A stretch of DNA of 38,317 nucleotides from a virus: positions 1-38,317 of IMG/VR virus record IMGVR_UViG_3300045918_000165; one strand, 5' to 3'. Position 1 is the stretch's first letter, and each line of letters opens with the position of its first letter. Under the pieces are notes generated by a model. It was not told the origin of the DNA and ran no database searches. It saw only the letters and a program-made list of their open reading frames with translations. The position numbers were made by a program, and so were the translations under genes. Positions 2,809 to 38,317 of this stretch are shown in pieces.

Positions 2809-3263
2809 CGAAGCGGAAGACTGACCAGCGGCGGACCACTAACCCAGCGGAGACAGCGGCGCGTGTGGCGCGTCTGCGGGAGTTGTGGGGAACGCTCATG
2901 ACGACGGAGGAGATCATCGTTGAAATCAACGCACTGCCAGGCGGCACGTGGCGGGCGGGTTATCTGCGGCACGTCGCTTCTAAGGGCAAGATGAAGCGGT
3001 CGGCGGCATTCCTGGCCAAGATGGGCGCGAACACGTTCATGGAGGGGGAGGCCGAACCGCAGGCGGCGGATATCTCCGATCTGCACCCAGAGCCGATACC
3101 CTACGCGGACGCACTCGGCTGGGCCGACTGCAACCGGGTCGAGATACCCGATGAAGACGACGTGGACGGGACGATGGCGATCATCAACGCGGCTCGTGCG
3201 CGGCACTATCTCGGGCCTTGGTATGTCGAGCGGCGCGCAATCGAATGGAGGAAAGCAGCATGA
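2805..3263 (+). CDS. Hypothetical early protein with possible helical DNA-binding N-terminus
   Basis: 152 aa. The first 25 residues are basic (KRKTDQRRTTNP) and are followed by a helix-turn-helix-like stretch, LRELWGTLMTTEEIIVEINALPGGTWRAGYLRHVAS, resembling sigma-like or GcrA-like arrangements. The middle and C-terminus are acidic (EIPDEDDVDG) and end in a tryptophan-containing helix. The start overlaps the RusA stop by ATGA. The product may bind DNA, but no family is recognised with certainty. Confidence 0.6.
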   Translation: MTKRKTDQRRTTNPAETAARVARLRELWGTLMTTEEIIVEINALPGGTWRAGYLRHVASKGKMKRSAAFLAKMGANTFMEGEAEPQAADISDLHPEPIPYADALGWADCNRVEIPDEDDVDGTMAIINAARARHYLGPWYVERRAIEWRKAA

Positions 3264-3379
3264 GTGAGCAAGACGCCATGGCGTTGGCACTGATCCGGGC
3301 GCGGGACGATCTGCGGCGGGAGATCGAGGCGGCGAAGCGCGAGGCTGCCACCGCCCCGCCATACCGGGGGGATTGGTAA
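3260..3379 (+). CDS. 39-aa charged helical microprotein
   Basis: ATG 3260 lies in the end of the previous gene and is preceded by GGAGGAAAG. The product is a single amphipathic charged helix (ALIRARDDLRREIEAAKREA) with a short proline tail ending in GDW. The TAA shares its last base with the next gene's ATG at 3379. Such short coiled-coil-like proteins are common in phage early operons. Function unknown. Confidence 0.55.
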   Translation: MSEQDAMALALIRARDDLRREIEAAKREAATAPPYRGDW

Positions 3380-13116: not shown

Positions 13117-13307
13117 TCGATGTAACGGCCAGGATGGCGCAGAAGATCCAGAACCATCCAGGATGGCAGGATGAGATGATGAAATTCAGCGGCCAGTCTC
13201 ACGGCCTCACGGCCAAGGATAGGCTCATCGTGCGGGCTGCTCAGGACAGGATGATGACGGATCTGGACGCCATCCGTCTGGCATCAGCGGCGCGGTGGGC
13301 GCCATGA
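13104..13307 (+). CDS. Hypothetical 67-aa protein
   Basis: ATG 13104 follows AGGGGGAAG at about 5 bases. The protein is helical, with a Trp-Gln-Asp turn (QKIQNHPGWQDEMMKFSGQS) and a charged helix (KDRLIVRAAQDRMMTDLDAI). Methionine-rich. Coupled on both sides by overlaps. Unknown function. Confidence 0.6.
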   Translation: MPRMIDVTARMAQKIQNHPGWQDEMMKFSGQSHGLTAKDRLIVRAAQDRMMTDLDAIRLASAARWAP

Positions 13308-13462
13308 CCAAGTTCATCCAGATCTACGATATCCGCGTTGATCGCACGTTCCAGGTCGAGATCGCGGACGATACGGTGGTCCCGCCGGATGTGCCTGTCT
13401 CCCCCACGCCATGGCCTGACATTCCTATGCGGCCACTGTCACCTGATGAGGACGCAGATTGA
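13304..13462 (+). CDS. Hypothetical 52-aa beta-strand protein before the portal gene
   Basis: ATG 13304 overlaps the previous stop by ATGA and the TGA overlaps the portal ATG (TGATG). The start is strand-like (TKFIQIYDIRVDRTFQVEIA), followed by a proline- and aspartate-rich tail (PPDVPVSPTPWPDIPMRPLS). It could be a small virion or packaging accessory. No family recognised. Confidence 0.58.
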   Translation: MTKFIQIYDIRVDRTFQVEIADDTVVPPDVPVSPTPWPDIPMRPLSPDEDAD

Positions 13463-21089: not shown

Positions 21090-21787
21090 GCGGCAATCTC
21101 TCCATGGAATTGCCCGTGCCTGATGCCGTTCTGGTTACTCCAGATGGGCGCGCCACGCGGATTCTAAGGACCTATCTGCAAATTCTCTCGGCCAGGACGG
21201 GCGGAAGTGCTGGCACGCCGCCCCTGACGGTGGGTGAGGTCAATCTTCTCATCGCGGCTGGCCTGTCACCGGAGACGGCGGCGCGGATCAGCGGCGATAG
21301 CACGAACGCGACGGCTGCGGCGGCGGCTCAGACCACGGCCAGTGCGGCGTTGCCCAAGCTCGGGACCACGACGAACGATAACGCTGCCGCAGGCAACATC
21401 GGAGAGTATATTTCATCCACGGTGCTGGCAGGCGCGGCGGTGGCACTCACGTCCACGGTGACGGCGGACATCACATCGATCTCCCTGACGGCGGGCGACT
21501 GGGATGTTGAGGCAGTGCTGGCATTTGCCCCGGCGGCGACAACCACGGTCACGGTGATCGAGGGCGCGATCTCCCAGACATCGGCCACGCTGCCCACGAT
21601 CCCGGCCTCTGGCGGCTATGCGAGGCTGGCGCTGGCATTCACGGCGGGTGCAACACAGGTGATAGCGACAAGCCGAGCCAGGATGTCCCTGGCGGGCGCT
21701 ACGACAATCTATCTCCCGGCCCGCGCGACGTTCGCAGTGTCCACCATGGGCGCCTACGGCTTCATCGGTGCGAGGCGCCCGCGATGA
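21086..21787 (+). CDS. Small structural protein with fibre/neck-type domain
   Basis: 233 aa. The N-terminal 60 residues are unusual, then an Ala-rich stalk (NATAAAAAQTTASAALPKLG) and a C-terminal beta domain of the type found in phage fibres and neck appendages: TSTVTADITSISLTAGDWDV, then GAISQTSATLPTIP and MSLAGATTIYLPARATF. Likely a virion surface or tail protein. Overlaps both neighbours by 4 bases. Confidence 0.6.
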   Translation: MSGNLSMELPVPDAVLVTPDGRATRILRTYLQILSARTGGSAGTPPLTVGEVNLLIAAGLSPETAARISGDSTNATAAAAAQTTASAALPKLGTTTNDNAAAGNIGEYISSTVLAGAAVALTSTVTADITSISLTAGDWDVEAVLAFAPAATTTVTVIEGAISQTSATLPTIPASGGYARLALAFTAGATQVIATSRARMSLAGATTIYLPARATFAVSTMGAYGFIGARRPR

Positions 21788-22848
21788 TCCGCCCGTATGT
21801 GATCTTTGGCCTCCCCCGCAGCCGGACCTTCTGGCTATCCAGGTTTTTGACCTATGGCGGGTGGAACTGCGGGCACGATGAGCTGCTCCACATGCGCGGC
21901 CTGGACGATCTGAAGTCGTGGCTGTCGCTGCCCAAGCAAGGCACGGTTGAGACTGGCGCCGCACCGTTCTGGCGCACGCTGAAGCGGATGGCGCCTGAAA
22001 CGCGGGTCGTCGTGGTGCAGCGCGATCCTGACCGCGTGTTTAAGAGCATGATGAAGCTGGGCATCCCGTTCGATGAAGACGTGTTGATGCACGAGATCGT
22101 CAAACTCAATCACAAGCTTGATCAGATCAAGGCGCGGTGGCCGGGCGCGCTGTCGGTGACCTATAGCGGTCTCGTTAGCCAGGATAACTGCGCGGAAATC
22201 TTTGAATATTGCATTCCCTACAAGCACGACTTCGAATGGTGGAACGCCATGAAGGCGATCAATCTCCAGGTCGATCTGGCGGCGGAAATCCGATATTTGC
22301 ACGCGCACCAGCCGCAACTGACGAAGCTGGCCGGGATGCTCAAGCAACAGACATTGCGGGATATGGCGCTCCGCTCGGTGGTGGCACCGGAAGGGATGAC
22401 GATTGAGGAAGAACCGTTCCGGCAGGCATGGGATGGCGCGCAGTCTATTATCAAGGACCATCAGGTGTTTGTGGGTGAAGTGCCGGACGGAGGCATCGGG
22501 AAGAACCAGGATATGTTCCAGATGCTTTATGATAACGGCGCGCTCCAGGTGATGACGGCGCGGTCGAATGGCCGGATTTTCGGTTATCTGATGACCACGG
22601 TAACAGGGTCGCTGGAGTCGCCTGATATCAAGTTGGCAGTTCATAACAGCTTCTATGCGTCTCCTGATGTTCCTGGTCTCGGGTTGAAGTTGCAGCGCGC
22701 GGCGTTGAACCGGCTGCGGGACAAGGGTGTGAATGAAGTCGTTTGGCATGCTGGCGTGCGTGGGTCTGGCCCTCGCATGGGGGTGCTGTATAAGCGGCTC
22801 GGCGCGGCGCCTTTCGGGGAACTTTATCATATGAATATGGGGGCTTAG
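21784..22848 (+). CDS. Sulfotransferase-like / GNAT acetyltransferase fusion
   Basis: 354 aa. The N-terminal half has the PAPS-binding loop FGLPRSRTFWLSRFL (residues 8-22, 5'-phosphosulfate loop) and QRDPDRVFKSMMKLG (79-93), which matches the 3'-phosphate motif with R80 and S88. The C-terminal half (about 205-354) is a GNAT domain: GRIFGYLMTTVTGS, VPGLGLKLQRAALNRL (acetyl-CoA loop, degenerate) and VRGSGPRMGVLYKRLGAAPF. It would modify a small molecule, glycan or protein. It sits in the tail module by 4-base overlaps. Inactive or repurposed use is possible. Confidence 0.72.
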   Translation: MIRPYVIFGLPRSRTFWLSRFLTYGGWNCGHDELLHMRGLDDLKSWLSLPKQGTVETGAAPFWRTLKRMAPETRVVVVQRDPDRVFKSMMKLGIPFDEDVLMHEIVKLNHKLDQIKARWPGALSVTYSGLVSQDNCAEIFEYCIPYKHDFEWWNAMKAINLQVDLAAEIRYLHAHQPQLTKLAGMLKQQTLRDMALRSVVAPEGMTIEEEPFRQAWDGAQSIIKDHQVFVGEVPDGGIGKNQDMFQMLYDNGALQVMTARSNGRIFGYLMTTVTGSLESPDIKLAVHNSFYASPDVPGLGLKLQRAALNRLRDKGVNEVVWHAGVRGSGPRMGVLYKRLGAAPFGELYHMNMGA

Positions 22849-24081: not shown

Positions 24082-25506
24082 ATGCCAGTTGATCCAGCCA
24101 CGCTTAACATGATCTCCAGCGGAGGGGTGCAGCCTCAGCCGTTGCCAAATCCGTTGAACAGCCTTCAGCAGTTCACGGGCATATCCAATGCGCTGGTGCA
24201 AAACCAGGTCATGCAGCAGCACATGCAGAACACCGGCATGGACATGGCCACCAAGGGCGCGAACAAGGCGGCGCAGATCCTGGCACCGTATCTCGTCATG
24301 TCCGATGACAAGCTATCCAGCGCGGACATGATCCAGTCATTAGATCAGCGCAACCAGAATGGGGAGTTGCCGCCCGCTGTCTATCAGCAAATCAAGTCCA
24401 CATTGAGCCAGATTGGAGACGACAAACAGAAGCTGCGGCGCTGGGTTGGGGGGGCTTTCACGGCGTCGATGTCATCGCCCGAGCAGGCGCAACAGCTATT
24501 CGGCAGCATGCAGAACGTGCAGGACGGTGAGGTATCGGCGGTCCAGAACGTGCCATCTACGTTTGGCGCGTCTCAACTGGGCCAGGGCGCATCCTTTGTG
24601 CCAGGCAGTAAGATCGGGGCGGGCACAAGCCCAGCAACGAAGGCTGAGTTGGTCGATACGTATGTTCTGGACCCGAAGACGGGCCAGTATAATCGGGTGA
24701 AGGTGGATCGCGGCTCGCTGCCAAACGCATCCGGCAGGAACCCGAACGGGCCTCCCGGCATCGGCGGGGCGCCAGGGATCGGTGGTGCGGGCGCACGCAG
24801 CATGGGGACGGGGGACTACCCCAAGACGGCGCAGGTGGCATCCGGCGCACCCCCCGGCCCGATCCTCGCGGCACCACCGCAGGGGCAGCCGGAGATATTG
24901 GCTGGTGACATCGCGCAATACAGGAAGGACATGGAGGCGATCCCGCAGAGGGAGCAGTCGATACAGACTCTTCTGAAGGCAAAGCATGCGCTGGAGATGG
25001 CCAGCACGGGCAGGGGTAGTGACTCTATCCAGAAGATGAAATCTTACGCTAATACGATTCTTGGAACGAACTTCGACAGCACAACGCCATATGACATCGT
25101 GCATAAATCCCTTCTGGATTATGCCAGGACACAAATGCGGGCGTCTAACACTGATGCGGCTCAATCGGCGTCTATTGGCTCCAATGCCAATGAATTGATT
25201 GATCCGCGCGCGGCGATGGAGGTTGTCAACCTCAACATCGGGCGTGAGCGTCAGTCCATCGTCATGCCGCTGGAGCATCAGACTAATTTGCCGCTCAAGG
25301 ACAGGACCGGCGCTGGGTATAATCAGCATACGCCTAAGTATGCCGGATCGACTGACCCGCGCGCTTTCCAGGCTGATCAGATTTCCCCCGAGGAATTGGA
25401 TAAACTGGTGGAAACCATACGCACGAAAGAAGGACCCGCCGCACTCAAAAGGTTTAAAGACAGCCTCGCGCTAGCAGCCAAGCACGGGAAACTGGATATG
25501 CCCTGA
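24082..25506 (+). CDS. Second ejection protein-like gene
   Basis: 474 aa with AAGGAAA before ATG 24082. Gln-, Asn- and Pro/Gly-rich start (GGVQPQPLPNPLNSLQQFTG), a helical middle (ALEMASTGRGSDSIQKMKSY), and an acidic-basic C-terminus ending in KRFKDSLALAAKHGKLDMP. No sequence family is certain. Position between gp7-like and transglycosylase-bearing genes suggests the gp20-type virion protein of the ejection apparatus. Confidence 0.6.
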   Translation: MPVDPATLNMISSGGVQPQPLPNPLNSLQQFTGISNALVQNQVMQQHMQNTGMDMATKGANKAAQILAPYLVMSDDKLSSADMIQSLDQRNQNGELPPAVYQQIKSTLSQIGDDKQKLRRWVGGAFTASMSSPEQAQQLFGSMQNVQDGEVSAVQNVPSTFGASQLGQGASFVPGSKIGAGTSPATKAELVDTYVLDPKTGQYNRVKVDRGSLPNASGRNPNGPPGIGGAPGIGGAGARSMGTGDYPKTAQVASGAPPGPILAAPPQGQPEILAGDIAQYRKDMEAIPQREQSIQTLLKAKHALEMASTGRGSDSIQKMKSYANTILGTNFDSTTPYDIVHKSLLDYARTQMRASNTDAAQSASIGSNANELIDPRAAMEVVNLNIGRERQSIVMPLEHQTNLPLKDRTGAGYNQHTPKYAGSTDPRAFQADQISPEELDKLVETIRTKEGPAALKRFKDSLALAAKHGKLDMP

Positions 25507-27830
25507 TGGCGGTCAATAGCACTTACGATGATCTGTTCGATCAGGCGGGCCGCGCTTACAACGTGGACCCCGCCATCCCTAAACTTGTGGCTCACATGGA
25601 AAGCGGGGCGAACCCCAATACTCGGGATAGTTCTGCGGGAGCGCAGGGGTTGATGGGCCTCATGCCTGCCACGGGGCGGGCAATGGGCGCCGTCGATATG
25701 CGGGATGTGAAACAAGCTATCTTTGCCGGGACGCGGTATATCCGCGAAGGGCTGGACTCTACCGGGACCGTGCCGGGGGCGCTGGCCTATTACCACGGCG
25801 GGCCTGATAGGGCGCAGTGGGGGCCAAAGACGACGGCCTATGTCGCCAAGGGGATCGGGCTTTTCCCGCAAATGGCGATGAATGTGAAAGGCGATGCGGT
25901 GGCTGGGTCTGATACATCCGAAGGCGATGCCATTCTCCAGAAACTCCTTAAACGGGGTTCGGCGGATCAGGGTGGCGCGTCCGCACCCGCATCGGATGCC
26001 ATGGATGGCGATGCCATCCTCAAGCGGCTCTTGGCCAGGCCCGGCAAGCCGAAAGAAGCGCCCGGCCCTGGCCCGATGGAAACGCCAGAGCCATTGGCAA
26101 ACGCGTCTGATCCTGAAGCACTGCCAAACATCGATGCCCCCGCGACCGCTCGCGCCGTCGGTGGTGTTGGGTCAAACATCCTACAGGCTGGCGCCCAGGG
26201 CGCGGCACAGGCGTTCGGGACAGAGCCGTTCGGGATGGGCGCGCCATTGGTAGCAGGCTTGCAGCGGGCCGGGATTTACCCCCCGGCGGCTGGCCAGGGC
26301 ACGATGATGCAGAACGTCAATCAGGCTGTCATGGGGCCGGTGGCTGCGGGCGTTGATCTCGCTGCCAGGGCTGGCGGGGCGCTGTTCCGCGGCGGTCAGG
26401 CGATGGTTGCCCAGGCTGGGACTGAGGCTGGCGTGCCTGGTTTCGGGCGCGATCTTGCTGCCATGCCAGAGGCGTTCATGGGATCGCCTGGAATGATGGC
26501 AAGCGGCGTCCCATCCGCTGCCATCCGGAACAACCTCATCCGTGAGCAGACGGTCGGCCAGCCGATCCCAAAACCACCAGTGACGGCAGCGCAGTTGATA
26601 GATGCGGTGCGGCAGGCGGACAATGGGAACCCGCTGACTGGCAAGCCGATGAATGGCGCGGCGTCTCCATCCCCGGGCGCGCCTATCCCTGGCGCTCCTG
26701 GCAGCGTTGGCGCGGCGGCGACACCCTCGGCACTGACCAACATGGCTCCACGTGAAGCGGCGGCATCCCGCGCCACGGCGGAAAATTACCATATGATGAA
26801 CCCCACGCCAGAAGCGGGCGATGCCACACGGTTTGTGCCGGGCAGCGAACCAACGGCGGCGGAGGTCGCGCGCGATCCGGTGATCTCCCAGCAATACAAG
26901 GTGGCGGAGCAGGCTCCCGGCAATCAGGGTCCATTCGTGGAACGCCAGGACCTGAACAATAAGGCGCGGATTGCCCATTATGAGAAGTTCGAGGGCACGC
27001 CATCGATCCTGAACCGGATGCGGGACGCGCGCGATGACCAAGCCAAAACTGACTATCCAGCGGCGTTCTCGGGAAAGAAGCCTACCGATCCAACGCCGGT
27101 TGTGGATGCCATCAAGTCCGTCCTAAAGGACCCGCGCGAGGCTGAAAACAGCTACGTCGGGCAATATATCAAGCCGCTGTTGGACCGCTTCACGGACGGC
27201 AAAGGGAACCTGAAGACGGACCCGGAATCGCTCTATGGCATCCGCGAGGACATCGCGCGCATGACATCGCGCTCAACCATCGCGGAAAAACCCACTCTGG
27301 ATCATGTCAGGTCGCAGTTGAGCGGTATCCAGGAAGTGCTTGATGGCGTGATTGAGAAAGGTGCGCCAGGATACAAGCAGTATATGGAGAATTATTCCGC
27401 AGCATCGAAGCCCATTGATGTTATGGAACTTCTTCAGGGCGAGAAGTTGGGCCTCGTGAACGGCTCGGAACGGACGATGACGTTCGCCAAATACGACAAG
27501 TTCATGCGTGATCTGATCGCTGACAGGCAGGCACGGGGGAACAATCAAGCGAAATCTATCCCGCCCGAGACGATGGACGAATTGATGAACATCCATAAGG
27601 ATCTTGCGCGGAAGCAGAACCTGACGCTGGGTGATCCTAAGAGTTCACCGACATCGATGCTCACGCGGGCGGTGAAGGTCGGGGACATCGCCATGCACGG
27701 CGCTATGCTCGGGTATGCCCCGCTCATTGGGAACTACGGCTATCAGATCGGGAGAAACATGATCAATAACAAGCTTCAGCAGCGGACCAACAACAAGCTG
27801 CTGACGGCTCCACCGCCCCCGGTGGACTAA
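25506..27830 (+). CDS. Ejection protein with N-terminal lytic transglycosylase
   Basis: 774 aa. Residues 10-110 are an SLT fold: NVDPAIPKLVAHMESGANPN with the catalytic Glu32, GAQGLMGLMPATGRAMG, then GTRYIREGL and LAYYHGGPD. It would cut peptidoglycan glycan strands to let DNA through. The rest is Pro/Ala-rich, then a long charged helical part (YVGQYIKPLLDRFTDGKGNL) and a C-terminal hydrophobic stretch (MHGAMLGYAPLIGNYGYQIG). Comparable to P22 gp16/T7 gp16. It is the only peptidoglycan-degrading domain I can find in the genome. Confidence 0.85.
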   Translation: MAVNSTYDDLFDQAGRAYNVDPAIPKLVAHMESGANPNTRDSSAGAQGLMGLMPATGRAMGAVDMRDVKQAIFAGTRYIREGLDSTGTVPGALAYYHGGPDRAQWGPKTTAYVAKGIGLFPQMAMNVKGDAVAGSDTSEGDAILQKLLKRGSADQGGASAPASDAMDGDAILKRLLARPGKPKEAPGPGPMETPEPLANASDPEALPNIDAPATARAVGGVGSNILQAGAQGAAQAFGTEPFGMGAPLVAGLQRAGIYPPAAGQGTMMQNVNQAVMGPVAAGVDLAARAGGALFRGGQAMVAQAGTEAGVPGFGRDLAAMPEAFMGSPGMMASGVPSAAIRNNLIREQTVGQPIPKPPVTAAQLIDAVRQADNGNPLTGKPMNGAASPSPGAPIPGAPGSVGAAATPSALTNMAPREAAASRATAENYHMMNPTPEAGDATRFVPGSEPTAAEVARDPVISQQYKVAEQAPGNQGPFVERQDLNNKARIAHYEKFEGTPSILNRMRDARDDQAKTDYPAAFSGKKPTDPTPVVDAIKSVLKDPREAENSYVGQYIKPLLDRFTDGKGNLKTDPESLYGIREDIARMTSRSTIAEKPTLDHVRSQLSGIQEVLDGVIEKGAPGYKQYMENYSAASKPIDVMELLQGEKLGLVNGSERTMTFAKYDKFMRDLIADRQARGNNQAKSIPPETMDELMNIHKDLARKQNLTLGDPKSSPTSMLTRAVKVGDIAMHGAMLGYAPLIGNYGYQIGRNMINNKLQQRTNNKLLTAPPPPVD

Positions 27831-28048
27831 TGGTAGACGATCATCGCCCGAACCCGGTTCATCTCGCGGCGCCTGCCGATCCGGTAAGCCGTCAACGCGC
27901 CACCGAAAATCAACATGATGGTGATGGGGATGGCCAAACCGGCCTTGCCCCCGGCATCCTCGATGATCTTCATGATGAACATCATCAGAGCGAACACGGC
28001 GAACAGCGCGACCGGTATCCCGGTAATCCACATAACAACCCGAGCCAT
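27827..28048 (-). CDS. Two-TM membrane protein on the strand opposite the tail operon
   Basis: 73 aa at ATG 28048 with AAGGA about 8 bases upstream; a start 9 bases earlier is possible. TM1 is VMWITGIPVALFAVFALMMF and TM2 is LAIPITIMLIFGGALTAYRI, with a basic C-terminus (GRRREMNRVRAM). Its stop overlaps the stop of the ejection gene, in a 250-base gap. Against the direction of all neighbours from 10473 to 35123, so it has its own promoter. Could be a superinfection-exclusion or holin-like protein. Shape only, no family. Confidence 0.65.
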   Translation of the reverse strand: MARVVMWITGIPVALFAVFALMMFIMKIIEDAGGKAGLAIPITIMLIFGGALTAYRIGRRREMNRVRAMIVYH

Positions 28049-28080
28049 GACAGGCATCCTTTCCTACAGGTGATCTCAGT

Positions 28081-29731: not shown

Positions 29732-32700
29732 ATGCGCCGTATCCTGCCGTTTTTGATGATGCTCGCGGCGCTCCCCGCCTGGGGGCAAGATGTGTCCGGC
29801 CCGTTTGTCGGACCTGGCGTGACAGGCCGGAACCAGATCAACACCATGCCGGGGTTCCGCACACCGGGCGAGTTCGGCGCTGCGGGCGATGCCATAAGGG
29901 CATGGGGCCTGACGTTCTCCACGGCGGCCTCGGCCAGCCCTACCGTCAGCATGATGGGGACGTATCAAATCCAATCCGCGACGGTGGTGTGCAACACGGC
30001 AACCTCTGCGGTGACGGTCACGCTGCCAGGCGGTGCCACGCTGCCATCGTTCCTGGCCAATTCCGGGACGTGGCGGGTCTATATTTCCAACTGCGGCGCG
30101 GCATCTGGCACCACCAACAACCAGTTGACCAGCGTCACCGGGACCGGCCCCTATACCTTCAACCTGGATGCCGTGGCCGGGACCACGTTTTCAGGAACGT
30201 CGCGCATCGTGATCGGGCCAACCGGCTCCACGGCGGGCGTCACCACCACGACGAACGCGAATAGCGGCACCTATCACCAGTGGCGGATCGACGCTTGCAC
30301 GATCTCCGGCACGACGCTGACATGCCCCAATGGGCCATTCATGACCGTGCGGGATTTCACACAGAGCGGGCCGGAAGGGCTGCTATCGACCTACATCAAC
30401 ATTCAGGACCCGGTGGGCGTCTGCCCTGACTTCCGCACGCGCATCCTGACCACGGCGAGTGCTACGGCGGCCACGCTGGAATCGGCGCCATCCTGCCAAA
30501 ACTACGGGGCGAACTTGGCGCTTTGGTGGGGGCCGCTGCTGTTCCCCACGACGATTGCCACCGGCCCGACGATCAGCGGCACGCCATGGACGTGCGAGTT
30601 CGCGGACACCGGCACGGCCTCGGCACCCCAGGCGCTTGCCGCATCCGCCTACGTCGATCCGTTCCATGCCACTTTTTCGGGCACCACCGTTACATCGCGG
30701 GTCGCGGTCAGGACCACGCTCACATGCGGCACGCCAGACGATACCGCGCTCGATAACACTGCCACGGCGGCGCTCAACGCGGGGTATGATTCGCTCTATC
30801 TGCCACCGGGTAAAAACTACCTGAAAACATCAACGACTTCCGCCGCGTCCTCTCTAGGTGGCGTGATCCTATGCAGCGACGGGATGCCCTCAGGCCGCAT
30901 TTTCTACCCGCTGAGCACGCCATCGCTGAAAAACGCGGTGCGCTGCACCCCCGCTCAGCCGATCTCCGTTCCTCAGACATCGATCAATTGGGACGCGCAC
31001 ATGCGGTCGGCGCAGTTCGCCAGCGGCACGGTTAAGGTCGTGGTGTTCGGGGATAGCATGATCTCGAACGGCTCCAACGGCATGGGCGAGGCCGGGTCAG
31101 GGTCCTACAACTTCGGCCAGTGGCTTTCCCGTGCATTGAACAAGCCCGTCCAGGTCTATCCCTATGCGATTGGCGGCACGCTCCTGGCCAACCTCGCGCC
31201 CAATTTCCCCGTCAACGTCTCGGCCAACGGCATCGGCATCCCAACGGCTGCCCAGGTCTCCACGGCGCTCTGGTATACCAACGGCACGCAGAAATGGATC
31301 GACTACGGCAAGGCGGTGTGCCCGCATATCGTGATGCTGGGGTTTCAGAATGACGGCTACAACCTGCCATGGTCCGCCTATTGGGACGTGTTGACCTACA
31401 TGAACGGCGCCGCGTGGCAGTCTTCATGCGGGTTCACACCGTCGATCATCTGGATCACGACGGGGATGTTCTCCCTGACGCAATCCAACGCGGGCACGCA
31501 CGAAAGCGGCTTTTACAGCCAGGACTTCTATCGTTCCTCGATCATGGCTGGTGACTATCCCACGATGGCCAACGGCGGACAGGTCGGGCTTCTCGATCTC
31601 CATAATGAGTATGTGAAGGCGACGGTTGGCGTCGATCACGTCTATGCGCCTCCGATGGTCCGGGCGATGTATTCCACACCGCCAACCCTGGCGAATGGTG
31701 GGCCGCAGAATAGCTTTCCTTATACGTGGCCTCGTCCGGTGCGGAACTATTCGTTCCTATCTCAACTACGGGTATCGGCGCCGACAAACCAGACATCATC
31801 GACGTGGTGGAATACGACGATGGGCGGCAGCATCAACATGCCGCTCGGGAACGGGGCCGCTGGGACACCAAACCTCATCAACGGCCAGTCCAGCCCGGCG
31901 GCGATTGGCTATCCTGGCGGCCAGATATCTCTGACGCGGGACGCTGGCGGCAACATCGCTTACACCGGCTACACGTTCCGGTTCTCTCAGACCGCCACAT
32001 GCACGGTCGTGACGGTCACACTGACATGCACAACGGCGGTCGCGAACGCTGGGCACTATTACGCGGATATCATCGTGCAGGGCGCGGGCGCGGCGACATG
32101 CCCGGTGGAAGTCGGCGGGGCGAACTGCCTCATCACCACCATCGCGCCAGCGGGTGTATCGGCGGACGGCAAGACGATCACGATGGTTGGCAGCGGCACC
32201 CTCGGATCATCGTCCACCACGGTCATCATTCAGCACAAGTTCGTCAACACCACGATCAGCACGATCTCGGGCCTGATCAACAATGGCGGCGATGGCGCCC
32301 CGGCATGCACCACGTGCGGGCTGCAGAACGGCATCAGCATGACGCTCAAGGGGCCGTTCGCCTCGATCGGCGACAGTCAGGTGTCGAACGTGCCGATCTT
32401 CCAGGGGCCGGTTGTGCGGTTCGGCGGGCGGTTCAAACCCATCATCACCATTGGCCTGGCAGGCACCACGACGCCAGCCAGCCAGTTTTCGTTTCCGCAG
32501 ATGCAGAACTCTCAGCCGAACTCGGCGGATGACGGTGACGACTTTACCCCGTTCACGCCAACCTACACGGATTACAAGTGCTGGGGCCAGCCGCCCGGGT
32601 ATGTCGGGCCAGAGGGCGGCGGATCGAACGCGCATATCGCCATCGGGTGCATGTCCACGCTGATCCAGACGCTTGTGAGCGGCCAGAACGGTTCGGCGTT

Positions 32701-33022
32701 CAAAACGGTTCCGGGTAGCACCGTCATGAACATCACGGCCAATGCCCAGATCACGACGATCCCGGCGGGGGCAACGCTGGTGGGGATCGACATCATCAAC
32801 ACCACGGCGAACGCGGTGACGGGCGGGATCAACATCGGGACGGCTGCGGCGGGATCTGACGTGGTCCTGGCCTTCGCGGTCGGGGCCTCGGCCAACGTGG
32901 CGCCAACGGACGCCCAGATCCTAAAGCGGACCTTCGCGAACACCGCGCAAGGCATCTTCATCTCAGCGGTGACGGCTTGGAACAGCGCCAACTTGACCGT
33001 CCGCGTGCGGTGGGCGCAGTGA
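29732..33022 (+). CDS. Large tail fibre/spike with SGNH hydrolase domain and a signal peptide
   Basis: 1096 aa. Residues 1-19 (MRRILPFLMMLAALPAWG) form a Sec signal peptide ending before QDVSG. A central SGNH/GDSL hydrolase is visible: VVVFGDSMISNG with Ser442, YAIGGTLL as the second block, MLGFQNDGYN as the third with Asn, and VGVDHVY about residue 635 with Asp and His. It would remove acetyl or other esters from surface polysaccharide. The flanks are Thr/Gly-rich beta repeats. A signal peptide on a fibre is unusual. Confidence 0.8.
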   Translation: MRRILPFLMMLAALPAWGQDVSGPFVGPGVTGRNQINTMPGFRTPGEFGAAGDAIRAWGLTFSTAASASPTVSMMGTYQIQSATVVCNTATSAVTVTLPGGATLPSFLANSGTWRVYISNCGAASGTTNNQLTSVTGTGPYTFNLDAVAGTTFSGTSRIVIGPTGSTAGVTTTTNANSGTYHQWRIDACTISGTTLTCPNGPFMTVRDFTQSGPEGLLSTYINIQDPVGVCPDFRTRILTTASATAATLESAPSCQNYGANLALWWGPLLFPTTIATGPTISGTPWTCEFADTGTASAPQALAASAYVDPFHATFSGTTVTSRVAVRTTLTCGTPDDTALDNTATAALNAGYDSLYLPPGKNYLKTSTTSAASSLGGVILCSDGMPSGRIFYPLSTPSLKNAVRCTPAQPISVPQTSINWDAHMRSAQFASGTVKVVVFGDSMISNGSNGMGEAGSGSYNFGQWLSRALNKPVQVYPYAIGGTLLANLAPNFPVNVSANGIGIPTAAQVSTALWYTNGTQKWIDYGKAVCPHIVMLGFQNDGYNLPWSAYWDVLTYMNGAAWQSSCGFTPSIIWITTGMFSLTQSNAGTHESGFYSQDFYRSSIMAGDYPTMANGGQVGLLDLHNEYVKATVGVDHVYAPPMVRAMYSTPPTLANGGPQNSFPYTWPRPVRNYSFLSQLRVSAPTNQTSSTWWNTTMGGSINMPLGNGAAGTPNLINGQSSPAAIGYPGGQISLTRDAGGNIAYTGYTFRFSQTATCTVVTVTLTCTTAVANAGHYYADIIVQGAGAATCPVEVGGANCLITTIAPAGVSADGKTITMVGSGTLGSSSTTVIIQHKFVNTTISTISGLINNGGDGAPACTTCGLQNGISMTLKGPFASIGDSQVSNVPIFQGPVVRFGGRFKPIITIGLAGTTTPASQFSFPQMQNSQPNSADDGDDFTPFTPTYTDYKCWGQPPGYVGPEGGGSNAHIAIGCMSTLIQTLVSGQNGSAFKTVPGSTVMNITANAQITTIPAGATLVGIDIINTTANAVTGGINIGTAAAGSDVVLAFAVGASANVAPTDAQILKRTFANTAQGIFISAVTAWNSANLTVRVRWAQ

Positions 33023-33276
33023 TCCGCACCGTTGCCCCTATCATCGTCTCCGTGATCGTGTTGATCATGTTCGGGTCGGTCTCGATGCTGGTGCTGACGC
33101 GGGGCCTCTATCCCGGCTCGGAACCCGTGGCCCTGATGCTCGTGGGCGGGCTGATTAGCATGGTGGGACAGGTCGGCAACTATTGGTTGGGTAGCAGTGC
33201 CGGAAGCAAAGAAAAGGACCAGACAATCAAAGAACAGGCCGCGAAATCACTGGAAACTCAAGGGAAGTTGATATAA
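33019..33276 (+). CDS. Holin-like protein (GTA-type motif)
   Basis: 85 aa from GTG 33019 (GTGA overlap). TM1 is VAPIIVSVIVLIMFGSVSML; TM2 is ALMLVGGLISMVGQVGNYWL, followed by the GSSAGSKEKDQ motif, which ends many holins of gene-transfer agents and alphaproteobacterial phages. A charged tail follows. It probably makes the membrane pores that begin lysis. First of a series of small membrane proteins. Confidence 0.75.
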   Translation: MIRTVAPIIVSVIVLIMFGSVSMLVLTRGLYPGSEPVALMLVGGLISMVGQVGNYWLGSSAGSKEKDQTIKEQAAKSLETQGKLI

Positions 33277-33277
33277 T
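33269..33277 (+). promoter_or_regulatory. Extended -10 promoter at the end of the holin gene
   Basis: TG-A-TATAAT (33269-33277) is a perfect extended -10, which can work without a good -35. It overlaps the holin stop codon. Transcription would begin near 33284, just before the hairpin at 33292-33320, and drive the downstream small membrane proteins separately from the long late transcript. Confidence 0.5.
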
Positions 33278-33291
33278 CCCATAGGTGTAGA

Positions 33292-33320
33292 AGCCGCCTG
33301 TGCTGGCACACAGAACGGCT
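33292..33320 (+). other. Bulged hairpin after the holin gene
   Basis: AGCCG (33292-33296) pairs with CGGCT (33316-33320), and inside it CTGTG (33298-33302) pairs with CACAG (33309-33313). It sits between the extended -10 promoter and the next open frames. No U tract follows, so leader structure, not termination, is the better reading. The 130 bases to the next likely gene carry no other clear feature. Confidence 0.45.
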
Positions 33321-33349
33321 CCCAGGCCCGCCAACCGGAGTAACCCGGC

Positions 33350-33421
33350 GTGACGACACAACAGCGTTACCCGCTCCATGCGTGGCTGGGTATGCCCCAG
33401 GTCACACATGCCCGGGCGTAA
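33350..33421 (+). CDS. Possible 23-aa leader peptide
   Basis: GTG 33350 has GGAG about 9 bases upstream and opens a 23-codon frame (MTTQQRYPLHAWLGMPQVTH then ARA) ending at 33421, overlapping the next gene's proposed start at 33408. It might be a leader peptide that couples translation. Too short for composition tests; the ribosome site is its main support. Confidence 0.25.
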   Translation: MTTQQRYPLHAWLGMPQVTHARA

Positions 33422-33653
33422 TTTTGGAGTGCAGAAACGAGATGCTCAGGCGCGCGTGTCAACCGTTCGTGAACCCATCGTTAATCCACAATCACGAAGA
33501 CGTATCGCGATCAAGGCGTTCCTCGGTCTGGTGCTGGGAAAATATGCCGCCATGTATGCGATCCATTATGCGGATGCGAGCGTCGTATGGATAACGGACA
33601 GGCTGCCGGGCTGGGTGGAGCCGTGGATTGGAAAAGCCTGGGGGATCATGTGA
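33408..33653 (+). CDS. Small membrane-associated protein of the lysis region (81 aa)
   Basis: The start is taken as ATG 33408 with AGG 6 bases before; GTG 33429 and 33456 are alternatives. The N-terminus is basic (SRRRIAIKAF), then a hydrophobic, aromatic segment (AFLGLVLGKYAAMYAIHYAD), then a Trp-rich end (VEPWIGKAWGIM). It probably inserts in or lies on the inner membrane. The TGA overlaps the start of a 33-aa ORF. Unknown family, lysis role inferred only from place. Confidence 0.55.
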   Translation: MPGRNFGVQKRDAQARVSTVREPIVNPQSRRRIAIKAFLGLVLGKYAAMYAIHYADASVVWITDRLPGWVEPWIGKAWGIM

Positions 33654-33751
33654 GAGAGTGGCAGCGCAACCCATTCAACTGGCGCCGGGATTGTGTGTTC
33701 TGCGGCGCGTTCATCGTCGGTGGGTTGCTGCACTTTACGGGCTTCTGGTGA
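33650..33751 (+). CDS. 33-aa membrane microprotein
   Basis: GTG 33650 overlaps the previous stop and has GGGGG 5 bases upstream. Residues 1-14 are basic-aromatic (REWQRNPFNWRRD), then CVFCGAFIVGGLLHFTGFW forms one transmembrane helix. The TGA overlaps the next ATG (TGATG), so both junctions are coupled. The coupling on both sides makes it a likely real gene in spite of its length. Could be an antiholin-like peptide. Confidence 0.5.
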   Translation: MREWQRNPFNWRRDCVFCGAFIVGGLLHFTGFW

Positions 33752-34098
33752 TGGATGTCGTGGTGGCGATCCACCTGTTCATCGACGCCGCGAATGCTCT
33801 CGCGCCGTTGGCGACGGGTGTTGCCGCCACGATAGCCGCTGTTGTCGCGTGGCGCACCCATCGTCAGGCGGTTAAAAACTTCGAGAAACTCCATGAAGTC
33901 TACGTGATGGTAGACGGCAAGATGGAGCGTTTCGAAGCAGCCCTGATCCGCGAGAAGGTGGCAAGTTCGGCGGTCGCCAGGCTGGAAGGCGTGGCCGAGG
34001 GCGTCGCGGCGGAACGTGACCGGCCAGCGGTGCCGCCCGTCGTGCCGTTAGACCCTGTCCCGGTTGTTTTGGTGAAGCCTATCGCTCCTGTTAGGTAA
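33751..34098 (+). CDS. Spanin-like protein (TM plus coiled coil)
   Basis: 115 aa. An N-terminal transmembrane helix (LAPLATGVAATIAAVVAWRT) is followed by a charged helical/coiled segment (RQAVKNFEKLHEVYVMVDGK, then REKVASSAVARLEGVAEGV) and a Pro/Val-rich tail (PAVPPVVPLDPVPVVLVKP). An N-terminal anchor with a coiled periplasmic part is the plan of i-spanins (Rz). No embedded Rz1 lipoprotein with a lipobox is seen in other frames. It could instead be a holin partner. Confidence 0.5.
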   Translation: MDVVVAIHLFIDAANALAPLATGVAATIAAVVAWRTHRQAVKNFEKLHEVYVMVDGKMERFEAALIREKVASSAVARLEGVAEGVAAERDRPAVPPVVPLDPVPVVLVKPIAPVR

Positions 34099-34261
34099 AT
34101 CCCGTATCTTGACGCCACCCATGGACGGAGGATATTGCGCCATGCACCCTCACCATCCGTGCCTGATCCTCGAAATCATAATCCGAGAATACGCCTGTCC
34201 GCCCGCCGGGCCGCGCCATATCGTGCTGGGCATTCCTGAAATAACCAAAAAGGGCCTCCCC

Positions 34262-34621
34262 GTGGCGAATTTCCCCGTATCCCCGACCGATCTGCTGCGC
34301 TTTCCGTTGATCTATATGTCCGCCGGGGCCGTTGTGCCCGCGCCTGCTGGTGCCACCTTCACCGTCACCACCAGCGCGCCTAACGTGCTGAAGGCCGAGA
34401 TCGGCACGATGTCCGCCAGCGGCCTCCCGGCACTGGTGATCAACCGCATTGCCATGACGATGCCCGATGACGTGACGGTGACGGTCACGGATAGCATCGG
34501 ATCCGTCCCGGCGACCCAGATCTTTTCCGCAGATGGCGCGGTCCCTGTTCCAGATGGCGTGTCTATCAGCATTGACACGGTCAACGTTGAGCGCGGCACG
34601 CAGCCTGCACCAACGATCTGA
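34262..34621 (+). CDS. Ig-like/beta-rich protein of uncertain start
   Basis: The conserved-looking part begins at GTG 34262 (AAGGG upstream), giving 119 aa with beta pattern: GATFTVTTSAPNVLKAEIGT, DDVTVTVTDSIGSVPATQIF, DGVSISIDTVNVERG, compatible with one Ig-like domain. An in-frame ATG at 34142 with GGAGG 10 bases before would add 40 residues with a different, Pro/Ile-rich character. Overlaps the next ATG by one base. Possibly a decoration or adhesion protein. Confidence 0.55.
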   Translation: MANFPVSPTDLLRFPLIYMSAGAVVPAPAGATFTVTTSAPNVLKAEIGTMSASGLPALVINRIAMTMPDDVTVTVTDSIGSVPATQIFSADGAVPVPDGVSISIDTVNVERGTQPAPTI

Positions 34622-34968
34622 TGGTGCTTCACCCGATAGCCATGACGGCGGCGGCGCTGGTGGCGCTGTCCGTCGTGGCACCCACTACCTGGGCGGCTAG
34701 TACGACACCGCACCAGGGGCCAAGCCCTCCGGTCTATGTCGTCTGTAAGCCGTCCGCTGCAAAGGACTTGGACCGGCTGGCGAGGGCGCTGGCAAACGCT
34801 CAGATTGGCGTCTCGGCCATGAAGGCCAACGCCAGGACGGACGGACAATACCGGGATCAGGACGTGATCGAGACCCGGGCCGCGATGCACAAACTTCGCG
34901 CGCTCCGGTTCGGCCAGGGCGGGGATGATGTCTGTGTTGGTCCTGCCGCACGAGGCAAGGCCTCGTGA
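34621..34968 (+). CDS. Exported 115-aa protein with signal peptide
   Basis: The N-terminus (VLHPIAMTAAALVALSVVAP, then TTWA) is a signal peptide; cleavage is likely after TWA. The mature part is mixed: VYVVCKPSAAKDLDRLARAL then a helical GQYRDQDVIETRAAMHKLRA and a late cysteine (DDVCVG), so a disulfide between the two Cys in the periplasm is possible. In the lysis area it might be a spanin partner or endolysin regulator, but no catalytic motif is visible. Confidence 0.6.
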   Translation: MVLHPIAMTAAALVALSVVAPTTWAASTTPHQGPSPPVYVVCKPSAAKDLDRLARALANAQIGVSAMKANARTDGQYRDQDVIETRAAMHKLRALRFGQGGDDVCVGPAARGKAS

Positions 34969-35123
34969 GCCTATGGATCATAGTGCTGCTGGCGTTCCTC
35001 GTGCTGGGCATGGGCGGTATCGGCTGGAACGGCTACAACACCGGCTGGGGTCCCGCGCATTATGGCGGAAGCGGGATCGGATTTATCCTGCTGATCGTGG
35101 TGGTCGTTCTGCTTTTCAGGTGA
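34965..35123 (+). CDS. DUF3309-like two-TM microprotein (52 aa)
   Basis: GTG 34965 overlaps the previous stop by GTGA. The plan, SLWIIVLLAFLVLGMGGIG (TM1), a Trp/Gly/Tyr turn (GYNTGWGPAHYGGSG) and GFILLIVVVVLLFR (TM2), matches the DUF3309 family of small hydrophobic proteins in Proteobacteria. Their role is unknown. It closes the rightward late operon, with a terminator starting 3 bases later. Confidence 0.75.
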   Translation: MSLWIIVLLAFLVLGMGGIGWNGYNTGWGPAHYGGSGIGFILLIVVVVLLFR

Positions 35124-35477
35124 TTAAAGGCCGAAAGCCTTTTTCGCCAGATAAAGGTCTGGGTTGGTTATGGATATCCATGTCCAAGGGTCTATCCATG
35201 ACCATACCCCGGCTGCCCCAAAGACAACCGCTAATATAAATGCAACGTATCCGAAGGCGTTTGGAACATCTCTATCAAATTGATCATCTTGATCAGCGGG
35301 TTTTCTATTCCACAGCTTACGGCCTCCAATAATCAGCAGTCCTGAAAATACAAACCATATGATGGACGCTATTAGGACGGAATATCCGTGGATACGCGCC
35401 GCGCTCATCGCCGCATCCGCGACTGATGGCCCGTATTTCTCCGCGAGATCAGCGAACTGTTGCGCTAGTTTGTCCAT
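35124..35477 (-). CDS. Two-TM membrane protein in an A+T-richer segment
   Basis: 117 aa from ATG 35477. The N-terminal helix (DKLAQQFADLAEKYGPSVAD) is followed by TM1 (VLIASIIWFVFSGLLIIGG), a charged loop (KLWNRKPADQDDQFDRDVPN) and TM2 (FGYVAFILAVVFGAAGVWSW). The DNA is clearly richer in A+T than the neighbouring genes, pointing to recent acquisition. The reading end overlaps the terminator at 35126. Opposite orientation to the late genes. Lysis, exclusion or host-membrane function possible. Confidence 0.65.
   Translation of the reverse strand: MDKLAQQFADLAEKYGPSVADAAMSAARIHGYSVLIASIIWFVFSGLLIIGGRKLWNRKPADQDDQFDRDVPNAFGYVAFILAVVFGAAGVWSWIDPWTWISITNPDLYLAKKAFGL
35126..35144 (+). terminator. 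Intrinsic terminator ending the late operon
   Basis: AAAGGC (35126-35131), loop CGAAA, GCCTTT (35137-35142) then TT: a clean hairpin with a U run on the plus strand, three bases after the last late gene. On the minus strand it also ends in a U run through the AAA side, so it can stop the convergent operon too. Confidence 0.75.
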
Positions 35478-37653: not shown

Positions 37654-37860
37654 CTACGGGCCGCGATCAGCGCCACGGCGGTCTATGATTTCCACTATGA
37701 ACCACGACGCCAATGCCGCGACCACCACCACACCCAGCCCCACCGCCAATCCCCAGACGTGCAGATAGCGCCATAGCTCCCACGTGAACGCCACGATCGT
37801 CAGCAGACAGAGTGCCGCCGCAACGGCCAAAATACCCGCGTTCAGCCGAATCACGTTCAT
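37654..37860 (-). CDS. Two-TM small membrane protein (68 aa)
   Basis: ATG 37860 overlaps the previous stop (ATGA). TM1 is ILAVAAALCLLTIVAFTWEL, TM2 is LAVGLGVVVVAALASWFIVE, with a basic end (IIDRRGADRGP). Last gene of the leftward join operon. Similar two-TM microproteins are often phage exclusion or holin proteins; no family recognised. Confidence 0.62.
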   Translation of the reverse strand: MNVIRLNAGILAVAAALCLLTIVAFTWELWRYLHVWGLAVGLGVVVVAALASWFIVEIIDRRGADRGP

Positions 37861-38231
37861 ATCCTAATCCTCCACATTGCCACGGCGGCGGCCCCCAGCA
37901 CGGCCAGCGTGCCCGGCTCGGGGGTGTCTACCGGGGCTACTATCCCAAGTTCCGGCCCTACTTGGGGTAGTCGGTCGTCAAATTGGGGCAGGAGCCGCGG
38001 CACCGAACCCGGCCACGGCGGCACCCACGGCACGGTTGCCCCAGGCCAGGGCCGGACCAGATCGGGCGGCGGCGCCTCTGTCGGCAACGGCGGCAGGGTG
38101 GTGATGACGATGCCAACGCTCCAGCACACGATGCGCGCGGCCCTTCTGGCGGCTACCTGGGCGGCGCCGTAGCCAATCCACCGGCCACCTGGCACCCAGC
38201 GCGCGGCGCGGGTCAGGCAGCGGATCACCAT
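37857..38231 (-). CDS. Proline-rich protein with PEP-CTERM-like sorting tail
   Basis: 124 aa from ATG 38231, overlapping the stop of the join gene by 7 bases. The N-terminus is basic then hydrophobic (RRAARIVCWSVGIVITTLPP), possibly a membrane anchor or signal. The middle is very Pro/Trp-rich. The last 24 residues (DTPEPGTLAVLGAAAVAMWR, then IRI) follow the PEP-CTERM plan: PEP at 104-106, a hydrophobic helix and a basic end, which exosortase recognises. The final basic cluster is short. In a phage this is unusual; hijack of host sorting or chance are both possible. Confidence 0.55.
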   Translation of the reverse strand: MVIRCLTRAARWVPGGRWIGYGAAQVAARRAARIVCWSVGIVITTLPPLPTEAPPPDLVRPWPGATVPWVPPWPGSVPRLLPQFDDRLPQVGPELGIVAPVDTPEPGTLAVLGAAAVAMWRIRI

Positions 38232-38317
38232 GCCGTCGTTGCTTCCATGAAGTCGGTCCAGATCCGGTCGAGCGCGTCACGGCGGACGTAGGCAACGGGA
38301 GCGTCGAGACCGTCCCG
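38225..38317 (-). CDS. C-terminal part of the protein across the window join
   Basis: From 38317 the minus strand is open for 30 codons (RDGLDAPVAYVRRDALDRIW, then TDFMEATTAW) to TGA 38227-38225. It is exactly in frame with the 34 codons at 102-1, forming a 64-aa protein if the ends are joined. The stop overlaps the start of the PEP-CTERM-like gene (ATGGTGA), as in a normal operon. No family recognised. Confidence 0.7.
   Translation of the reverse strand, partial: RDGLDAPVAYVRRDALDRIWTDFMEATTAW

Follow-up and report, generated by a model that had tools for sequence, protein, structure and literature searches.

A predicted holin of an endolysin-associated family lies without a recognisable endolysin in two otherwise different phages

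The DNA analysed here, referred to as the window, is the whole of IMG/VR virus record IMGVR_UViG_3300045918_000165 (38317 bases), which is classed as linear and has no completeness estimate, so that the genome is possibly incomplete. Our subject is its lysis region and, above all, the gene at 33019-33276, which its sequence indicates to be a genuine holin with a predicted membrane-hole function. The protein belongs to a family, the GSSAGSxxKD holins, in which an endolysin seed is matched at a distance of at most 5 kb, on the same strand, at 68 of 79 related holin loci, whereas no endolysin was found within 5 kb of the holin in either the window or its closest relative, G001 (which is excluded from the 79). 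The explanation we favour combines a genuine holin, a lysin that goes unrecognised and an accessory role for a three-gene unit at 34142-35123, and we put this combination forward tentatively, as falling just short of an even chance.

33019-33276, plus strand: predicted holin, 85 amino acids, GTG start, two hydrophobic segments and a GSSAGSKEKD tail.

The GTG start codon overlaps the stop codon of a tail gene that ends at 33022, and the product is 75% identical to its G001 counterpart. The PHROGs matches of the window protein itself are confined to phrog_1544 and phrog_38564, neither of which has an assigned function, and this short protein of 85 amino acids does not match GTA_holin_3TM (PF11351); a longer relative (L003) matches both that family and the holin family phrog_3427. 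Relatives on viral contigs are similar across both hydrophobic segments and the tail, residues G58, S59, S60, S63, K66 and D67 are invariant in the family alignment (A8), and the family profile recovers the window protein. The association with endolysins (68 of 79 loci, or 37 of 45 after dereplication) describes the context of the family rather than providing an independent test, given that the seeds were largely drawn from the same loci (plus L003 and L018). By seed, the 68 loci divide into M15 (24), GH19 (16), GH108 (12), GH24 (5) and Amidase_2 (5), followed by peptidoglycan-binding (2), Muramidase (2), Amidase_3, a name given by eye (1), and SLT-like (1). Pfam confirms the M15, GH24, Muramidase, GH108, GH19 and Amidase_2 seed families, and a cautious count using Pfam-supported seeds gives 64 of 79, omitting the loci found with the L031 seed (1), the L071 seed (1) and the peptidoglycan-binding seed from L018 (2), the last two seeds drawing their support from context or a binding domain. 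The L031 seed, the one named Amidase_3 by eye, lacks a PF01520 match and counts for one of the 68. In 4 of the 11 negative loci (L026, L037, L082 and L096) the holin lies no more than 450 bases from the end of the locus.

It is because of this family context that we read 33019-33276 as a genuine holin. An earlier set of predictions made from this DNA alone (the sequence-only reading) had proposed a holin-like protein here, and both the family alignment and the endolysin-rich surroundings of the family bear this out. The window gene shares with the lysis clusters of its relatives the two hydrophobic segments, the conserved tail and a late position after a tail gene, but differs from them in having no recognisable adjacent endolysin. 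In Bradyrhizobium phage ppBjS10J-1, a peptidoglycan-binding protein is encoded directly upstream of the holin relative. We also observed holin relatives on Azospirillum plasmids (L019, L020), with annotated lysozyme genes at most 5.2 kb away.

The sequence-only reading had further claimed that the phage has no recognisable endolysin, and that its one muralytic domain belongs to a virion protein:

25506-27830, plus strand: virion/ejection-type protein with an N-terminal SLT transglycosylase domain (PF01464, E 3e-12).

Both statements hold for the record. In Pfam scans of 56 distinct window open reading frames (ORFs), with the small ORFs 194-430, 427-639, 3260-3379 and 13304-13462 lying outside them, this SLT domain was the only muralytic domain; PIG-Y, VTT and similar Pfam matches fell below cut-off and were rejected. 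Six-frame searches of the window with PF07486, PF00959, PF01510, PF05257, PF01551, PF05838, PF00182 and PF01520 returned nothing, and profiles of seven endolysin groups together with further single-sequence queries returned nothing convincing in the window or G001. Pfam, PHROGs and NCBIfam placed no known muralytic domain in the genes starting at 33751, 34142, 34621 and 34965, and a sequence search of the PDB with 34142 and 34621 found none in these two. Profile searches of the window ORFs, the check that had been proposed alongside the claim, thus found no canonical endolysin.

The claim is strengthened by G001, which has no recognised endolysin either. This genome (62561 bases, classed as linear by IMG/VR, and containing locus L002) is probably essentially complete, because a sequence of 241 bases recurs at both of its ends with 93% identity. 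The arm that it has in common with the window starts almost exactly at the start of the holin (33017) and runs in patches to 38231, taking in the holin, 34142, 34621, a DUF3309-like counterpart and parts of the early genes on the minus strand; the virion genes of the two phages are mostly different. When 123 of the 126 listed G001 ORFs were scanned with Pfam (the other three being partial ORFs at piece ends), no muralytic family was found, no SLT match was obtained, and PHROGs showed no muralytic family among the best 25 of 48 and the best 25 of 62 families.

G001 also bears on the possibility that a normal endolysin lies in a stretch missing from the record, between base 38317 and base 1. The record is linear and of unestimated completeness, and its left end has two small helix-turn-helix-like genes and its right end a series of leftward genes, a gene content from which a repressor/recombination stretch is probably missing. 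However, the stretch of G001 that matches this gap carries YqaJ, RNase_T, ERF and other non-lysis genes, the scanned G001 ORFs include no muralytic family, and late genes are rarely located in such an early/recombination region. We therefore consider an endolysin hidden in the gap to be unlikely.

Acetobacter phage phiAX1 (LC644973.1; L010) resembles the window in its P22-like portal and in its SLT-bearing virion protein, which is 39% identical to 25506-27830 over 109 amino acids. The top matches of the window portal in the phage collection are from Pseudomonas phage PAE2 (42%) and phiAX1 (37.5%). In phiAX1, unlike in the window, a putative lysozyme-like endolysin is grouped compactly with a membrane protein and Rz/Rz1-like genes. 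The putative endolysin, considered lysozyme-like from a reading of its sequence, is encoded at 43214-43690, where it is annotated as hypothetical and is flanked by a gene for a coiled-coil membrane protein on one side and by membrane and Rz/Rz1-like genes on the other, with an Rz1-like lipoprotein gene at 44501. It is homologous to L071 5225-5698, which adjoins a holin of the GSSAGSxxKD family. The L071 relative has no Pfam match at 1e-3, the phiAX1 protein has none in NCBIfam (the Pfam results for phiAX1 being the best 25 of 31), and in the PDB the latter matches only a hypothetical protein (E 0.036). Because this putative endolysin escapes NCBIfam and its L071 relative escapes Pfam, profile libraries can miss lysins in this group; for the same reason, and because the completeness of this linear record is unestimated, the absence of an endolysin from the window is not provable. 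A profile of the phiAX1/L071 class found no convincing match in the window or in G001.

The comparison with phiAX1 also helps to judge whether the SLT domain of 25506-27830 doubles as the endolysin, an idea close to the sequence-only reading's suggestion of lysis by a tail enzyme. This is the sole muralytic domain found, and virion lysins that also serve release exist in other phages. Yet G001 has the same holin arm and no SLT match, and phiAX1 has a homologous SLT virion protein in addition to its separate putative endolysin, so that we disfavour this explanation and regard it as distinctly improbable. When viral contigs were scanned for relatives of the SLT virion protein, none appeared.

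Downstream in the common arm lies the three-gene unit, which was found in the window and G001 only:

34142-34621, plus strand: predicted immunoglobulin (Ig)-like beta-sandwich protein, 159 amino acids, fold at about residues 50-128, GGAGG upstream.
34621-34968, plus strand: predicted exported protein, 115 amino acids, hydrophobic N-terminus by hydropathy scan, predicted two-helix hairpin.
34965-35123, plus strand: DUF3309 protein, 52 amino acids, two hydrophobic segments, PF11752 at 23.3 bits against a cut-off of 22.3.

The three genes are translationally coupled, with 34142 and 34621 overlapping in TGATG and 34621 and 34965 in GTGA. The first of them was overlooked in the sequence-only reading. 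Its product, 68% identical in G001, has a conserved N-terminus with His and Cys residues and no visible signal peptide, and its model is beta-rich with a mean predicted local distance difference test score (pLDDT) of 58.8, rising to 62-86 over residues 51-130 (in blocks of ten), although the five models differ in confidence. Foldseek returned Ig/BIG2-type matches (best E 5e-3, TM-scores 0.3-0.4), and an Ig-like fold rather than an enzyme fold is tentatively predicted from the model. Between the window and G001, the first 46 codons (34142-34279) are 91% identical in amino acids against 59% for the rest, with 11 of 138 bases changed and a synonymous divergence (dS) of about 0.2 against about 1.1. 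These codons show no RNA structure (z-scores +0.8 and +1.5), and a search of the other viral contigs for their DNA found nothing; this frozen start may be due to recent exchange or to an overlapping DNA site.

Of the proteins of the unit that the two phages share, the second, 34621-34968, is the best conserved (81% identity in G001; nonsynonymous divergence, dN, about 0.12 and dS about 0.56), and Cys42 and Cys105 are conserved in G001. Its model, of low confidence (mean pLDDT 54.7), has helices at 44-69 and 79-97. For both 34142 and 34621, dN/dS is well below 1. The sequence-only reading had named an exported protein and a DUF3309-like protein here; the hydrophobic N-terminus of 34621-34968 is indeed of an exported type as far as its sequence indicates, and the PF11752 score places 34965-35123 above the family cut-off. 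The G001 counterpart of the latter, identified by position, is 38% identical over 52 codons. The one paper that we found on DUF3309 describes, in the excerpted text, a secreted Asaia bogorensis protein of unknown function (PMC12502724). No database names 34142 or 34621, and our literature searches found no description of this gene unit. Beyond G001, no relatives of 34621 and 34142 were found in viral contigs, genome contigs or phages, nor of 34142 in plasmids, in scans that used short conserved peptides or BLAST and that distant relatives could escape. None of the 79 other holin loci carries the unit.

The unit could instead supply the lysis effector, with 34621 and/or 34142 acting alongside the holin as a new muralytic enzyme, a wall-synthesis inhibitor or an activator of host autolysins. 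In support of this, the genes are translationally coupled and conserved together with the holin in a pair of phages neither of which has a recognised endolysin, 34621 is the most conserved of them and under purifying selection, and the N-terminus of 34142 retains His and Cys residues. Set against these points, no catalytic family or motif was seen by Pfam, PHROGs or NCBIfam, or in the PDB for 34142 and 34621, the predicted folds look non-enzymatic, the unit is absent from the 79 other holin loci, and it is the entire right arm, not the unit alone, that the two phages have in common in patches. The novel muralytic enzyme suggested by the sequence-only reading gained no positive evidence, 34142 being modelled as Ig-like and 34621, with low confidence, as a helical hairpin; the wall-synthesis inhibitor that it offered as well is a possibility. 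We judge an effector role for the trio to be unlikely. Its more specific form, in which the periplasmic helical protein would trigger host autolysins or block wall synthesis and, with the holin, replace the endolysin in two otherwise different tailed dsDNA phages, appears decidedly unlikely.

In the explanation that we favour, the holin at 33019-33276 would accumulate in the inner membrane and open it at the end of infection. The dedicated wall-cutting enzyme would most likely be a diverged one that escapes sequence profiles and whose gene would lie either in this arm or in another part of the genome; neither such an enzyme nor an endolysin in an unsequenced part of the genome was among the alternatives offered by the sequence-only reading. 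The genes at 34142, 34621 and 34965 would more likely form an accessory moron-like operon than a muralytic step; its products, one with an Ig fold, one helical and periplasmic and one a small membrane protein, would perhaps alter the host surface or exclude superinfecting phages. We lean towards this accessory role because a muralytic unit would be expected at some other holin loci or with an enzyme-like fold. We also count in its favour that the unit lies where the late region gives way to convergent early genes on the minus strand, a natural place for accessory genes, as in lambda bor. Several points weigh against the combined explanation: the searches pinpointed no diverged lysin in the window or G001; the unit accompanies a lysin-less holin in both phages, which would fit just as well with its replacing the lysin; and promoter-like sites before 34142 occur at chance level (2 found against 1.1 expected), the match TTGACGCC being conserved in G001.

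The general view is that a tailed phage must encode a muralytic enzyme of its own. In lysis by phage PM2, host enzymes are reported to have a role. The excerpted account of the PM2 proteome recognises no putative endolysin and assigns lysis to P17 and P18 (PMC1950889). By this precedent the window phage might need no lysin of its own, the holin collapsing the membrane and host autolysins opening the wall. The likeness lies in small membrane lysis proteins without a recognised endolysin, as far as those excerpts go (PMC1950889), and no lysin was seen in the window or G001. It is a likeness by description, however, with no homology to P17 or P18 tested or found, and PM2 is tailless, with an absence that refers to a complete proteome. 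Most relatives of the window holin keep an adjacent endolysin, which indicates that this holin type normally works with one, and we consider a lysin-free route very improbable. Sphingobium phage Lacusarx presents the reverse of the window: it has a putative AmpD amidase, but its holin has not been identified.

Between the holin and the three-gene unit, the region contains the following:

33277-33750, no strand assigned: weak-ORF stretch, with 33378-33653 doubtful and 33587-33751 weak, not common to G001.
33751-34098, plus strand: probable accessory membrane protein of the lysis region, 115 amino acids, N-terminal hydrophobic segment and proline-rich tail.

The order is thus the tail gene ending at 33022, the holin, the weak-ORF stretch, 33751-34098, 34142, 34621 and 34965, followed by convergent minus-strand genes. 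Judged by codon statistics, coding is favoured for 33019, 33751, 34142, 34621 and 34965 and opposed for 33378-33653, whose log-odds of -8.6 (+5.3 in its 3' half) led us to reject it as a coding sequence as drawn. The other weak ORF, 33587-33751, reaches only +1.4, though its TGA overlaps the next ATG at 33751. The two transmembrane microproteins proposed for this stretch were not confirmed. Its frames matched no endolysin profile at E below 0.4, and blastn found no match to 33270-34140 in phages.

The next gene, 33751-34098, has better codon statistics (log-odds +9.7), and its N-terminal hydrophobic segment by hydropathy and a probable coiled coil read by eye might suit an i-spanin. It has no Pfam match over cut-off, no PHROGs match and no phage match. 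A lipobox scan of six frames of the window, using ATG starts, found no lipoprotein and hence no o- or u-spanin candidate, while the same scan recovered the Rz1-like gene of phiAX1 as a control. For want of a lipoprotein partner in the window we did not retain a spanin, and the spanin-like protein of the sequence-only reading is not supported. According to excerpts of a spanin survey, 7 of 677 phages are unambiguously without lipoprotein genes and no spanins were found in 91 (PMC6139136), and because of these counts, within the excerpts, the lack of a spanin is not unusual. By eye, 33751-34098 resembles genes of 116-123 amino acids downstream of the holin in L026, L027, L029 and L030, and it probably serves this holin as an accessory membrane protein.

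Elsewhere in the window, Pfam identified a P22-type portal, a coat protein, a tail accessory protein, Terminase_3 and an Sf6-like small terminase; Rfam gave zero matches in the window, and its last 10 kb had no nucleotide match in the phage collection. The large tail-type protein that precedes the holin (29732-33022, plus strand) has GDSM and DxxH-like blocks, SGNH esterase-like by eye, and is matched by neither Pfam nor NCBIfam. Among the clustered virion genes, 21784-22848 (plus strand) encodes a sulfotransferase-domain protein (PF17784/PF13469) with a counterpart in G001 (L013:10622-11698), though most virion genes differ, and a 76-amino-acid ORF with two transmembrane segments and good codon scores (27827-28057, minus strand) lies opposite, between two late genes. 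Among the minus-strand genes, 35124-35477 is a 117-amino-acid ORF with two transmembrane segments, atypical codon use (GC3 0.47) and a weak likeness to a moron membrane protein PHROG (E 0.0025). A 124-amino-acid protein at 37857-38231 (minus strand), 88% identical in nucleotides in G001, has a PEP-CTERM-like C-terminal motif (Pfam E 1.9e-4; NCBIfam 15.8 bits, narrowly missing the cut-off of 16) and adjoins an ORF with two transmembrane segments at 37654-37860.

Finally, a holin from a family almost always paired with an endolysin, lacking one in two phages, provides a short list of genes in which to look for a new lysin or a lysin-free route. Should a diverged enzyme be found, this would show how much lysin catalogues miss in alphaproteobacterial phages.

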